A stretch of DNA of 64,000 nt from SAR86 cluster bacterium (lineage in GTDB: Bacteria; Pseudomonadota; Gammaproteobacteria; Magnimaribacterales; Magnimaribacteraceae), in NCBI GenBank assembly GCA_029268615.1, contig JAQWNM010000017.1:1-64000 (forward strand), in the 5' to 3' direction. Under the pieces are notes generated by a model. That model searched no databases, was not told the origin of the DNA, and was given only the letters and a program-made list of their open reading frames with translations. This document shows, one piece after another, positions 1,020 through 6,471 of this stretch. Made by a program: the position numbers and the translations under genes. The number at the start of each line of letters is the position of its first letter. The stretch's first letter is position 1.

Positions 1020-1037
1020 TTACTCAACCGTTACAGA
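1020..1037 (-). repeat. glmS 3'-end-like repeat, copy D
   Basis: On the minus strand it encodes S-V-T-V-E-stop, exactly the C-terminus of GlmS, but with different third-codon bases from the intact glmS (4636-4653). It is in frame with, and forms the end of, the MutS domain-I gene. The bases after the stop (GTTCGAACAGAGAAT) resemble those after copies B and E. Confidence 0.65.
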
Positions 1038-1460
1038 GTATTTTACAACAGTAAATAATCTTAGATTAGAATATAAGTCCATCAGCACCATCAATAGTGG
1101 AAAAAGACACAACTCTCTCAATTTATTTTCTTTACTCTTCTCTAACTGATCTAAAATACAATAATTTATATTCAAATCATCTAATAATTTTTTATATTTA
1201 CCTAATCCGCCTAAAGGAAAACCAGTCGAGTAATGATTTACTCCGAATAATTTTAAGTTAAAATTTTTGTTTAAAAATTCCGCTCCATCGTCAACTGCCT
1301 CATAAAAGGATCCGCATTGAATAAGGACTAAATCAAAATCAAAATCCTTTTTTAGGGATTCTGTGATAGTAACTTTAATACCTTTATATTTTGATTTTGG
1401 ATATCTCTTGGCTTTCTGTTGCTCCAGTCCAGTTGATCCGCCTTGATAAATTTTAATCAT
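1020..1460 (-). CDS. Stand-alone MutS domain I (mismatch-recognition) protein
   Basis: 146 residues. Residues about 40-108 match the N-terminal mismatch-binding domain of MutS: a G-x-FYE motif (Phe52-Tyr53-Glu54, the Phe-x-Glu that stacks on a mispaired base in MutS), then an acidic helix, a GVNHYSTGFPLGGL stretch equal to the GIPYHA region, and a KYKKLLDDLNINYCILDQ segment equal to the region ending VAICEQ. The connector, lever, clamp and ATPase domains of MutS are absent, so it cannot be a repair MutS. Stand-alone MutS-I proteins are known as accessory proteins of some mobile retroelements, but no reverse transcriptase is visible here. The last residues (YSVTVE) coincide with a glmS-end repeat, so the C-terminus may be acquired sequence. 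An AGGAT about 11 bases upstream of the ATG could serve as ribosome binding site. Confidence 0.7.
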   Translation of the reverse strand: MIKIYQGGSTGLEQQKAKRYPKSKYKGIKVTITESLKKDFDFDLVLIQCGSFYEAVDDGAEFLNKNFNLKLFGVNHYSTGFPLGGLGKYKKLLDDLNINYCILDQLEKSKENKLRELCLFPLLMVLMDLYSNLRLFTVVKYSVTVE

Positions 1461-2109: not shown

Positions 2110-2136
2110 TGTTGTAAACTATTCCACAGTAATGGA
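2104..2136 (-). repeat. glmS 3'-end-like repeat, copy B
   Basis: The minus strand reads S-I-T-V-E-stop at 2136-2119, then a tail containing TTTACAACAGTGAAT in which the HD gene's GTG start lies. 25 bases (2108-2132) are identical to copy C. It separates the restriction endonuclease from the HD hydrolase. Confidence 0.75.
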
Positions 2137-2216
2137 GTATCCATAACCGAATTATTTTTTTTAGTTTGTCTGTTTTGATTTTTTTCCATCCTTATGTTTC
2201 TCTTTTCAGTACAGTG

Positions 2217-3296
2217 TCAATTTGTAATAAGTATCATGTCGCTTGTGGTGGCATAGGTTTTATTTTCCCAATTAAAGTTTATATTTTTTCCAATGTTTTT
2301 GGTTTTGGAAAAATATTCTTTTAAGGATTCTTTTATTAATGGGAGCGATCTTTTCATAGTCCACCCTTCGAATAAATTTTCATTATTAATAAAAACAATA
2401 AAGAATCTATTTGCTGAATCAAACCTTCTTATTCCTTGGTTCTCGTATAACCATATCATTAAGGAATTTGGATTGCTTTGCACTTCTGCAACCAACCTCT
2501 TTCTAAATCTTTCTAGATCTAAAACTAGTTCATTTGATGAATCATATTCTTTATGTTTTATCCATAGATCTTTAAGCAAATCTGCGCTTGGGGTTGATTG
2601 ATCAAATGATATTGATAGTTCTCTTGCTGATTGTTTAAGAAGTGTTAGTTCGGGTCTTAGTCCCTCTTCTTTCCTTTTGTCTTTAATATATCCTTCTGGA
2701 AGATATGTGACTTTAAGATCAAAGGGGGTCTCATCAATAAAAAAATCTATTTTTTTAATTTGTCCAAGCGCTGGAGTGACTCTATTGAAATCTTTAAAAA
2801 TGTCTTCAATCATGATTGAAGTCCAGTGATTATACCAGGAACATCTCACGTAACCTCTAAGACTATCTTGAAGGGAATTGTTTATATGATCTTCGAGTTC
2901 ATTATAATTTGGTATCTTTTTTATATAGTTATTGACAATTGTTTGTTCTAAACTGTTTTGATAGAGACCTCCCCAATCAAACTCCTTTAATTTATATAAT
3001 TCATTGTATAGTTCGTCTTCATTTAGAAGTCTTTTTTTTCTTTCTTCAATATATTTTTGATTTATATAAGACTGAATCTCATTTTTTTTTAATGGGGAGT
3101 TAAAAATTAGGGGTAATTTCTCTTTTACTAAAAGTTTTTCTTTATCAGACAGATTGAATTGCTTTATAAGTTCATCCATATATACAGATCTGCTTAAAGA
3201 CTTAATGTATAAATATCTTAAACCCTCAGATTGATTAACAATTTCACTAATCTGATCTTTCTTGTACATTTCTTCTAGTTCTTTTAAATGACCCAT
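2217..3296 (-). CDS. PD-(D/E)XK restriction endonuclease, partner of the adjacent methyltransferase
   Basis: 359 residues from an ATG at 3296, preceded by GGGAGA six bases upstream. A TTG at 3308 is possible but less likely. No close family is recognisable by eye. Residues 182-197 (KKIDFFIDETPFDLKV) have the layout of a PD-(D/E)XK nuclease core: Asp184 or Asp188 at the end of a strand, then Asp193-Leu-Lys195, with Glu164 in the preceding helix. The N-terminal 100 residues are charged and helical. The gene overlaps the end of the methyltransferase gene by 13 bases, the arrangement of type II restriction-modification pairs with the methylase made first. The recognition sequence is unknown. Confidence 0.72.
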   Translation of the reverse strand: MGHLKELEEMYKKDQISEIVNQSEGLRYLYIKSLSRSVYMDELIKQFNLSDKEKLLVKEKLPLIFNSPLKKNEIQSYINQKYIEERKKRLLNEDELYNELYKLKEFDWGGLYQNSLEQTIVNNYIKKIPNYNELEDHINNSLQDSLRGYVRCSWYNHWTSIMIEDIFKDFNRVTPALGQIKKIDFFIDETPFDLKVTYLPEGYIKDKRKEEGLRPELTLLKQSARELSISFDQSTPSADLLKDLWIKHKEYDSSNELVLDLERFRKRLVAEVQSNPNSLMIWLYENQGIRRFDSANRFFIVFINNENLFEGWTMKRSLPLIKESLKEYFSKTKNIGKNINFNWENKTYATTSDMILITN

Positions 3297-4639
3297 GATG
3301 TCTCCCAACCTGAAATTTTAGATATATCTTTTTTGGGTCTTTGATTTTTATAGAAAACAACACACCAATCATATTTTAGTGCTCCTTCTCTATTATCTTG
3401 AACAACAGATCCTGCACTATAGTTTGCCTTAAATTTACCCTCGTAATATAGTGCTTCCGATTGATCTGACAGGTCCTTTAAAAAATTCCAGAAGTCCATG
3501 TCGGTGGTGTTAAACATTAAGATTAATCTACCGCCCTTTTTAATTTTTCTTTCACATAGGTCCCAGAAAATAGAGAAATCATTTTTATAACTGGTTTGAT
3601 CTTTATTTCTTTCAGGAGAGTTTGAAACTATCATTTCGTTATCATAATTAGGTTTCTCTCCAATAATAGCATTCCATATCTCAGATAATTCTAAGTAAGG
3701 AACTCTGTCTCCATGTGGTGGGTCAGTGATTATGTTATCAATTGTGTTATCTTCTATATTGTTAAGCATTTCTCTAAAGTCTTTCAAATGAATTTCGTTA
3801 TTTGTTTGAGTTGTATTAATAGGATTTTCTTCCATTCTTTTAAGAGCATTGATTAATCTTTTGCTTCTTCCGCTAAAAACTCTCCAAGCATTTGTTTCAA
3901 TGCTTCTATCAGGTTTCCACAAACCAATTACCCAACTTCCAACCTCATATTTAACTTTGCTTTTAGAGTTTTTATTTCTTCTATTAATTGCAAAAACCAT
4001 TTTTGACATTTGCCCGACGCTGCTTGTAAGAATAAATTTTGCAATTTCTTGATCTCCTTTGGGCATTTGACTAATGCTCCTTAAAATAAGATCAATTGAT
4101 TTGATTGCCCTGGTTGAAAACAAGGAATATAGATCTTGATTTTTTCTTACGTTTATTCTCACATTTTCTAAAAGGTTAGTATTTTTAAAATAAATGGTTT
4201 TAAAATTATGCTCTTCTTTAAAGTTCCAATCTTCCGCTTTTGCTAAATCAACTCCCCTCCCCTTAGGCACCCACACTTCTTTTATTTCACTTTTTTCATA
4301 AAGTATATGTGATGCTTCAACATTCTTACTGTTGGTATAAAAAGACCTTATTTCTTCTTCGCAGTCCTCTTTAATCTTTAAAAAAATTTTTTCGACTTGA
4401 TGCGATGTTGGAGGATTGGAGATTATTCTAGAAATAAGGATTGCGGAGGGGTTAATGTCACAACCCACAAAAGGAATATCGTTTTGCTTGCATGCTCTTG
4501 CAATAACACCTGATCCTAAAAAGGGATCAACGATTAATGAGTTAGAGTCTGCTATTCTGTCTAATATTTTTTGATATAGTTCTACGGGTTTTTTTCCCCA
4601 GTATTTATGTGCCGAGTATATGCCAGCATATCCCTTCAT
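3284..4639 (-). CDS. DNA methyltransferase (N4-cytosine or N6-adenine) of a type II restriction-modification system
   Basis: 451 residues. The S-adenosylmethionine site is DPFLGSG (residues 38-44, motif I), following an AHKYWGKKP segment typical of this methylase group. The catalytic motif IV is TDPPHGD (residues 305-311), a DPP-type motif in which His replaces the usual aromatic residue. About 260 residues between the motifs probably carry the target-recognition domain. Motif I therefore precedes motif IV. Its ATG overlaps the glmS stop codon (ATGA), so it should be translated from the glmUS message by coupling. That is unusual for a mobile methylase and means that the island begins exactly at the glmS end. 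Confidence 0.85.
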   Translation of the reverse strand: MKGYAGIYSAHKYWGKKPVELYQKILDRIADSNSLIVDPFLGSGVIARACKQNDIPFVGCDINPSAILISRIISNPPTSHQVEKIFLKIKEDCEEEIRSFYTNSKNVEASHILYEKSEIKEVWVPKGRGVDLAKAEDWNFKEEHNFKTIYFKNTNLLENVRINVRKNQDLYSLFSTRAIKSIDLILRSISQMPKGDQEIAKFILTSSVGQMSKMVFAINRRNKNSKSKVKYEVGSWVIGLWKPDRSIETNAWRVFSGRSKRLINALKRMEENPINTTQTNNEIHLKDFREMLNNIEDNTIDNIITDPPHGDRVPYLELSEIWNAIIGEKPNYDNEMIVSNSPERNKDQTSYKNDFSIFWDLCERKIKKGGRLILMFNTTDMDFWNFLKDLSDQSEALYYEGKFKANYSAGSVVQDNREGALKYDWCVVFYKNQRPKKDISKISGWETSWVI

Positions 4640-4653
4640 TCGACGGTGACGGA
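4636..4653 (-). repeat. Intact 3' end of glmS, reference copy A of the repeat series
   Basis: Codons S-V-T-V-E-stop of glmS. Four further copies with synonymous differences lie downstream at 2119-2136, 1500-1517, 1020-1037 and 740-757. The end of glmS is the sequence recognised by TnsD-type target selectors of Tn7-like elements, so it is a known insertion hotspot. Confidence 0.6.
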
Positions 4654-6471
4654 TTTTGCTAAATTTCTAGGTTGGTCTATATCGGTCCCCTTTAGAACAG
4701 CGACATGATAGGAAAGCAACTGCAAAGGTATTGTATAAAGTATTGGTGCTATTAATTCGGGAGCTTCTGGTAACGCTACAAATTTAGTTATCAAAGAATC
4801 GTGTAAAGCTTTATCGTGCCCGAATACATATAATTTTCCTCCTCTAGCCCTTACCTCTTCTAAATTAGATTTTAGTTTTTCTAGTAAATCGTCATTAGGA
4901 GCCACGGCTATAACGGGCATTTCTGAATCTACCAAGGCTAATGGGCCATGTTTCAACTCTCCGGCGGGATATGCCTCGGCATGAATATAAGAAATTTCTT
5001 TCAGCTTTAGTGCTCCTTCCATAGCAATTGGGTAATGAATTCCTCGACCCAAAAATAAAGCATGGTCTTTGTGGGCAAAATCTTCTGCCATATTAATAAT
5101 TTCTTTTTCTAACTGCATAACCTTTTCCAAAGAATCTGGCAAGGCTTCTAAAGAGGTATTAATACTTTTCTCTGCAACCTCAGATAAACCATGATGTCTA
5201 CCAAGAACTAAAGTTAACATTAATAATCCCACTAATTGAGTAGTAAAGGCTTTTGTTGAAGCCACCCCTATCTCGGGTCCAGCTTTGGTTAAAAAAACTA
5301 AGTCTGATTCTCTGGCTAAGGAGCTCGTAGGAACGTTGCATATTCCTAACTTTGCCAGATAATTAGCCGCGCTGGATGAACGTAAGCATGCCAAAGTATC
5401 TGCGGTTTCTCCTGATTGGGATATGGTTATAAACAAAGTATTTGGGGCAACCACTTTATTTCTATATCTAAATTCGCTGGCAACCTCTACGCTACAAGGC
5501 AATCCTGAGAGGCCCTCTAACCAGTATTTTGCAACCATGCCGGCATGATAACTGGTTCCACAAGCAACTATCTGAACAGCTTGAACATGTTTAAAGATTT
5601 CAGGAGCGCCTGGACCAAATATTTCTTCTTGAACGCCATTATTTGTAAACTGACCTTCTAAAAGCCCTTTAACCTTTTGCGGCTGTTCATATATCTCTTT
5701 TAGCATAAAATGACGAAAGTCACCCTTTTCTACAGTCTGACCCAAACTTTTTGCTATCACGATTGGCCTATCAATTATTTCGCTATTTTTATCCCAGATA
5801 GTGACCTTTTGAGAAGATATCTCTGCCAGATCTCCTTCCTCTAAAAAAATAAATTCTTCTGCAAAATCAGCGAGAGCCAACTGATCTGAAGCTAGAAAAT
5901 TTTCACCCTCTGCCTTTCCGAGAACTAACGGACTTCCTTTTCTTGCAGCGGCTATAACATCAGGCTGATTTGAAGACATAACGCCTATAGCATAAGCTCC
6001 TTCTAATTCAGCTACTGCTTTGCTTAACGCTTCTGTAATAGTTAAGGCGCCATCGGATAATTTTGCATGGACTAAGTGAGCTATCACTTCAGTATCTGTA
6101 TCAGAAGTAAATGCATATCCCGACTCCTTAAGCATAGTGCGAAGGGCTGAATGATTTTCTATAATCCCATTATGCACAACAAAAACATTTTCATTTGAAG
6201 TGTGAGGATGGGCATTATGCTCGGTAGGAGAGCCGTGAGTTGCCCATCTAGTGTGGGCAATACCAACCTTGCCAGAAATAGGGCTTTCAGCTATAGCTCT
6301 TTGCAATTCAGAAACCTTTCCTAGCCTTCTAAGTACGTTAACTTGGTCTTCTTCTTCATTGTAAATAGCTATGCCTGAAGAATCATAGCCTCTATATTCC
6401 TGTCTCACCAGACCCGCTAACAACTTGTCAGTAACTGGTCGATTTGATACTACTCCAACTATTCCACACAT
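4636..6471 (-). CDS. glmS: Glutamine-fructose-6-phosphate aminotransferase (isomerizing)
   Basis: 611 residues, standard length. It makes glucosamine 6-phosphate from fructose 6-phosphate and glutamine, the first step to UDP-GlcNAc for peptidoglycan and lipid A. After Met removal the N-terminal Cys of MCGIVGVV is the glutaminase nucleophile; HTRWATHG and the HNG(I/V)IEN stretch complete the class II amidotransferase domain. Two SIS sugar-isomerase domains follow (CGTSYHAG and SQSGETADT; GRGIHYPIAMEGALKLKE). The C-terminus is the conserved LAKSVTVE. The start codon overlaps the glmU stop by one base (TAATG), so the two are coupled. There is no glmS ribozyme or leader space. Confidence 0.98.
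   Translation of the reverse strand: MCGIVGVVSNRPVTDKLLAGLVRQEYRGYDSSGIAIYNEEEDQVNVLRRLGKVSELQRAIAESPISGKVGIAHTRWATHGSPTEHNAHPHTSNENVFVVHNGIIENHSALRTMLKESGYAFTSDTDTEVIAHLVHAKLSDGALTITEALSKAVAELEGAYAIGVMSSNQPDVIAAARKGSPLVLGKAEGENFLASDQLALADFAEEFIFLEEGDLAEISSQKVTIWDKNSEIIDRPIVIAKSLGQTVEKGDFRHFMLKEIYEQPQKVKGLLEGQFTNNGVQEEIFGPGAPEIFKHVQAVQIVACGTSYHAGMVAKYWLEGLSGLPCSVEVASEFRYRNKVVAPNTLFITISQSGETADTLACLRSSSAANYLAKLGICNVPTSSLARESDLVFLTKAGPEIGVASTKAFTTQLVGLLMLTLVLGRHHGLSEVAEKSINTSLEALPDSLEKVMQLEKEIINMAEDFAHKDHALFLGRGIHYPIAMEGALKLKEISYIHAEAYPAGELKHGPLALVDSEMPVIAVAPNDDLLEKLKSNLEEVRARGGKLYVFGHDKALHDSLITKFVALPEAPELIAPILYTIPLQLLSYHVAVLKGTDIDQPRNLAKSVTVE

Follow-up and report, generated by a model that had tools for sequence, protein, structure and literature searches.

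The window (the whole stretch of 64,000 nucleotides that was analyzed) carries a glmS gene on its reverse strand (4636–6471), followed on the same strand and in this order by a DNA methyltransferase gene and its partner, an HD-domain gene, a gene encoding a stand-alone MutS domain I (hereafter MutS-I), a 280-bp unit and a DUF2987-like gene. Copies of the end of glmS (NTNACNGTNGARTRR), each followed by an AT-rich arm, stand between these units. The window includes five such glmS-end sites, all on the same strand, with cores starting at 4650, 2133, 1514, 1034 and 754. The first one consists of the last codons of glmS itself (4636–4650), the putative attachment site. Three others separate the restriction-modification (R-M) and HD cassettes (core 2119–2133), separate the HD and MutS-I cassettes (core 1500–1514) and close the MutS-I cassette (core 1020–1037, TCTGTAACGGTTGAGTAA). 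Four cassettes are delimited in this way: (i) c1 (2119–4635), encoding the methyltransferase and a 363-aa partner that is perhaps its restriction enzyme, (ii) c2 (1500–2118), carrying the HD-domain (RelA/SpoT-like) gene, (iii) c3 (1020–1499), the complete MutS-I cassette of 480 bp, and (iv) c4 (740–1019), the 280-bp unit. The 5′ arm of the MutS-I cassette (1486–1499, TTTACAACAGTAAA) and its 3′ arm (1042–1055, TTTACTGTTGTAAA) match perfectly as a 14-bp inverted repeat; a 15-bp stem forms when the two ends of this cassette are joined again. The sequence-only reading of this DNA had missed that the glmS-end repeat builds an array and that the MutS-I ORF is carried by a complete cassette of this array. 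Two other descriptions, a 27-bp repeat considered as a simple palindrome or transposon end and an ordinary island with a glmS end on either side, were dropped in favor of the array.

The last array bases of the window, i.e., the 280 bases of c4 (740–1019) and 740 further bases (1–743), are 100% and 99.9% identical, respectively, to part of an array from another genus (G008). This identity could result from a recent transfer or from a binning error (mis-binned contig).

As annotated, the MutS-I ORF (1020–1460, reverse strand) encodes 146 residues and, as proposed from the sequence alone, matches the Pfam domain MutS_I (PF01624) above its cut-off (22.5 bits compared to 20.6, E = 1.4e-4, residues 36–113). 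The expected Phe-x-Glu motif (FYE at residues 52–54) is present, and MutS_I is the only domain matched in this ORF, in agreement with the initial claim that it encodes neither ATPase nor clamp. No second MutS_I match was found in the rest of the genome, which also has no match to the MutS ATPase domain (MutS_V). An AlphaFold model built from six related sequences (mean pLDDT 64) was compared with the PDB using Foldseek: ranks 1 to 32 are all occupied by MutS/MSH chains with probabilities of 0.95–1.0, although the corresponding E-values are weak (0.015–0.34). VIA-align gave Z-scores of 8.4 to MSH3 and 8.2 to Escherichia coli MutS, compared to 6.3 for XPB, the best non-MutS row. The sequence-only reading had named structure prediction as a check and an unrelated fold as a reason for abandoning the assignment; the best PDB matches of the model are domain I of MutS/MSH. 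The predicted MutS domain I fold is an assignment of moderate strength, and a sequence search against PDB chains returned only noise. The N-terminal stretch of the protein is conserved, yet disordered in the model.

Only residues ~1–113 of the annotated ORF are native. A frameshift after codon ~113 puts residues ~114–146 out of frame. Read in the −1 frame, the sequence from base 1122 encodes IERVVSFSTIDGADGLIF, with a stop codon at 1068–1066; this segment (1066–1122, reverse strand) is assigned as the native C-terminus from the gain in Pfam score and from comparison with the C-termini of homologues. Joining it to the protein raises the MutS_I score from 22.5 to 24.5 bits. Against homologue C-termini, it outperforms shuffled sequences (P = 0.0005, 0.003 and 0.053), whereas the annotated in-frame tail (LRELCLFPLLM..KYSVTVE) is no better than shuffles (P = 0.85–0.97). 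Furthermore, IERVVSFSTIDGADGLIF resembles the strand that closes MutS domain I. The last residues had initially been attributed to a glmS-end repeat. KYSVTVE is indeed encoded by a glmS-end copy, but it is an out-of-frame run-on and not the native end: since the frameshift hides the latter, the glmS-like residues reflect reading into the adjoining repeat and not the design of the protein. The frameshift near 1122 may be either a true mutation (decay) or an assembly slip. A frameshift, located in a run of T, also affects the nearest homologue (from genome G177).

The MutS-I family is rare, with matches in only three of 199 relatives, namely the window's own genome, G177 and G032. Five of 369 matched in the wider class, including the window gene, one reverse transcriptase of a diversity-generating retroelement (DGR) and two open frames of full-MutS length. 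No homologue was found in the viral contigs, phages, plasmids or named genome contigs searched. G177 belongs to another family of the same order, and its protein shares with that of the window the N-terminal motif GGxxGLxQQ..YPxS and ~40% identity. Its gene lies outside any glmS array (no site within 12 kb). The G032 protein is longer, scores below the Pfam MutS_I cut-off and is encoded next to a PD-(D/E)XK nuclease. The Phe-x-Glu position is not fixed among relatives (FYE, TFD, YFN, YFE and FYE). Given the frameshifts of the window gene and of G177, and the absence of FYE from some relatives, selection may no longer maintain a function.

This rarity and these two frameshifts would fit a dead relic, i.e., a fragment of mutS or of a MutS-I gene drifting in a hypervariable island and devoid of present function. 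However, the MutS ATPase domain (MutS_V) is absent from all 61 genomes of the order tested, 26 of which are at least 90% complete, while the same search detected it in 11 of 14 control genomes. As the whole order appears devoid of mutS, the window gene is not a local decay product, and the possibility envisaged by the sequence-only reading, that homologues are all remains of decayed full-length mutS genes, does not hold here. The motif and identity shared with G177 and the intact ends of the MutS-I cassette also argue against a relic, and the frameshift of the window gene is perhaps an assembly error. Taken as a whole, we consider a relic rather unlikely, although it retains some weight. The absence of the MutS ATPase domain from the order also implies that the MutS-I protein cannot work with a resident MutS.

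A link with DGRs had been raised, and MutS-I has been reported as a DGR accessory domain (PMC10053308). This link is valid for the domain in general: a gammaproteobacterium (G272; L015, 8009–10519) harbors a true DGR in which MutS-I is fused to the reverse transcriptase, with a 139-bp pair of template and variable repeats in which 19 of 20 changes are located at A. MutS-I can therefore be found in mobile DNA as an independent module. Accessory proteins of the MSL type consist of MutS-I either fused to the reverse transcriptase or alone, as here, and the protein of the window could in principle serve a DGR whose other parts lie elsewhere in the genome. However, the link does not extend to the window gene. 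No reverse transcriptase was found in its 96% complete genome, and no repeat pair of at least 60 bp, hence no template or variable repeat, was found in the window by a search that recovered the G272 pair as a positive control; the initial remark that neither a reverse transcriptase nor such repeats are visible is borne out across the genome for the former and across the window for the latter. Since the genome lacks a reverse transcriptase, the MutS-I protein is not a DGR factor, and we give this alternative almost no credence.

The array of the window is far from isolated. Among family members sampled by glmS alone, 14 of 20 carry at least two glmS-end sites in the stretch read. A stricter pattern (TCNGTNACNGTNGARTA) searched in 199 genomes of the order gave clustered same-strand matches, up to ten per genome, whereas matches to its reversed control were rare in the same genomes. 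We then considered 40 arrays, 20 found by glmS alone and 20 chosen for having several sites. These 40 stretches behind glmS (539 kb) include 148 sites in the orientation of glmS and none in reverse. They comprise 108 cassettes with a median size of 662 bp, whose largest ORF is oriented with glmS in 93 cases and against it in 11. The ORFs in glmS orientation start at a median distance of 37 bases from the cassette boundary. The same cassettes are located at different positions in different species: unit 1 of G014 corresponds to unit 2 of G025, unit 1 of G006 is found as unit 4 of G028 and unit 3 of G006 matches unit 2 of G028. Arrays are also found beyond the order, since the marine single-cell genome AG-333-A13 of an uncultured Woeseiaceae (L038, 2892–10904) carries seven glmS-end sites in 7.4 kb and a Pseudohongiella genome carries two. 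Parts of their units match units of the order at up to ~90%, and L038 units have ends in common with cassettes of the order. On the other hand, 71 of 80 named glmS loci have a single site, the end of glmS itself, and the site pattern was not found in the viral contigs searched. The cassettes carry restriction and methylase genes, genes encoding HNH and other nucleases, MORN repeats, HIT proteins and sulfotransferases, a cargo much like that of integrons. MutS_I does not recur within the 25 commonest Pfam families of cassette proteins. Two cassette proteins match IscB.

The ends of a cassette match each other. The first ~24 bases of a cassette pair with the bases preceding its own closing core better than with the ends of other cassettes (9.40 compared to 5.65, sd 0.16, when ends are swapped, with none of 5000 permutations reaching the observed value), and re-joined ends fold at −10.0 kcal/mol compared to −6.2 kcal/mol for swapped joins. 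A strong arm match is absent from 61 of the 108 cassettes, perhaps because of missed sites or decayed ends. In 45 of the 47 cassettes with strong arms, the dyad centre is located between A and C of the glmS Thr codon. Synonymous variation within the core points to the same place, although pairs taken inside one cluster are not independent. Cassettes sharing their 3′ end differ at core positions −1 and +2 in only 0.33 and 0.17 of pairs (0.71 and 0.73 for random pairs) but differ at +5, +8 and +11 as often as random pairs. Conversely, cassettes sharing their 5′ end are near random at −1 and +2 (0.75 and 0.58), keep +8 and +11 (0.38 and 0.07) and keep +5 only partly (0.51). This contrast places strand exchange beside the AC of the Thr codon, its right-hand limit being less well defined. 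It should be emphasized that the pattern used to find sites fixes AC; its invariance is therefore no evidence in itself, unlike the codon contrast and the dyad. Sequence comparison thus suggests a quasi-palindromic site of ~50 bp with exchange at its central dinucleotide.

The position of the exchange bears on Tn7-like transposition, since Tn7 is also known to target the end of glmS. However, exchange occurs here inside the Thr codon and not ~25 bp past the stop codon, every unit closes with a full glmS-end copy, and the 25 Pfam families most frequent in the cassettes include no transposase. On these observations, such a transposition into the glmS end appears very improbable.

Large serine integrases use a palindrome of ~50 bp with exchange at its central dinucleotide, whereas tyrosine recombinases need 6–8 bp of identity. 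Movement of the arrays could nevertheless depend on a tyrosine recombinase (XerC/XerD or an enzyme resembling integron integrases), perhaps acting on folded single strands. This would be consistent with the cassette-specific arms that keep pairing, as in integron attC sites, with the folding of re-joined ends and with the presence of XerC and XerD throughout the family of the window, where other tyrosine recombinases are scattered. On the other hand, no tyrosine integrase (PF00589) was found beside glmS in 35 genomes, and exchange maps beside the 2-bp centre of a symmetric site, silent differences being tolerated on either side. Furthermore, one glmS element encodes a serine enzyme. This element, found in Rhodospirillaceae bacterium SI053_bin63 (L078, 9809–15158), extends from behind glmS to a second glmS-end site and starts with the same kind of arm (TAGTTCACAACAGTGAATTAAG). 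It contains a gene for a large serine recombinase of 566 aa, whose end lies 33 bases short of the far glmS-end site; the ends of the element show no clear inverted repeat. We consider a tyrosine recombinase unlikely and regard the L078 serine recombinase as the strongest candidate for a founding enzyme of such arrays. No serine recombinase was detected above the cut-off in the family of the window, and no L078-like one was found in the 40 arrays or in the viral contigs searched; the enzyme is therefore deduced from one distant genome. Our preferred reading is that a large serine recombinase would act in trans on the cassettes. The glmS arrays also repeatedly encode short proteins similar to a portion of the serine Recombinase domain (PF07508), in L078 (10469–10735), L146 (321–539) and L147 (2174–2374); they are perhaps recombinase remnants or helpers.

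The fold, the matched ends, the orientation bias, the presence of cassettes at different places across species and the position of the exchange point lead us to propose that the stand-alone MutS-I gene is probably the cargo of a mobile cassette, moved by a recombinase, in an array growing at the 3′ end of glmS. Each cassette would carry a palindromic attachment site of ~50–60 bp in two parts, one at each end; the arms of this site flank the final codons of glmS and, although matched within a cassette, differ from one cassette to another. Circularization of the cassette, which we infer, would reunite the two parts. Strand exchange, at AC in the Thr codon of ..SVTVE*, would be catalyzed by a site-specific recombinase provided from elsewhere and most probably belonging to the large serine type. 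Insertion would put the cassette after glmS, which would gain a new synonymous end while its old end would shift to the far side of the cassette. Cassette genes, mostly in the direction of glmS, would probably be read from the glmS transcript by read-through. Whether this extends to a general gene-capture platform, with rows of small cassettes inserted at the end of glmS through cassette-specific palindromic sites centred on a glmS codon, moved in trans by a large serine recombinase and shared across genera and probably classes of marine bacteria, and with MutS-I as one cargo among others, appears to us evenly balanced.

These arrays resemble two known systems. Like integrons, they are rows of small one-gene cassettes in one orientation, and in both systems the arms of a site pair within a cassette while differing from one cassette to the next. 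However, their core is the 3′ end of glmS, they have no integron integrase alongside and no separate attI site; moreover, attC is a complete site at one cassette end, whereas here the arms are split over both ends around the central AC. With elements moved by large serine integrases, they share the quasi-palindromic ~50-bp site, its central dinucleotide and, in L078, the serine recombinase beside the glmS-end site. They differ from these elements by units of mostly 0.2–2 kb, devoid of recombinase and arranged in rows of up to eight. We found no published description of glmS cassette arrays in the literature searched, whose coverage left out most subscription papers. We rate the glmS array as a variant of integrons or serine-integrase islands for which no description was found, and the MutS-I gene as belonging to a known kind. 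If this proposal is true, small-genome marine bacteria would possess, at the end of glmS, a predictable locus for the integron-like trading of single genes, among them restriction systems, nucleases, genes for small membrane proteins and many genes of unknown function. Mobile genes could then be collected from ocean genomes simply by means of the glmS-end repeat, and the site and candidate recombinase would be directly testable.

The role of the MutS-I protein itself can only be approached tentatively. Compared to the MutS family, it has the domain I fold, FYE and an above-cut-off Pfam match, but lacks the connector, lever, clamp and ATPase domains, has an additional N-terminal motif and is found in an order devoid of mutS. 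Domain I of MutS provides the base-specific contacts, although the clamp is needed for binding. Free domain I could be a weak reader of distorted DNA that perhaps recruits a partner via its conserved N-terminal stretch. A guess from the fold, which we favor but hold with some reserve, is that the protein may be a passive binder of bent, mispaired or looped DNA, perhaps involved in defence and not in mismatch repair. The sequence-only reading had suggested that it works with the neighboring R-M genes or with the mobility of the island. The array indeed looks mobile, but the R-M neighbors are separate cassettes, so adjacency is weak evidence of a shared function. As a counterpoint, the G177 gene is likewise located beside a type II R-M pair, which includes a MutH/Sau3AI-type enzyme. 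Three cassette proteins match the C-terminal domain of NucS (mismatch endonuclease family) in this order without mutS. Since domain I travels alone where the order appears to lack mutS, its role without the rest of MutS can be asked. A prophage of G299 (L014, 6230–6811) encodes a 193-aa protein that associates DUF3553 and MutS-I, with an intact frame and close to a repressor-like gene; this protein is a better bench candidate than the MutS-I gene of the window.
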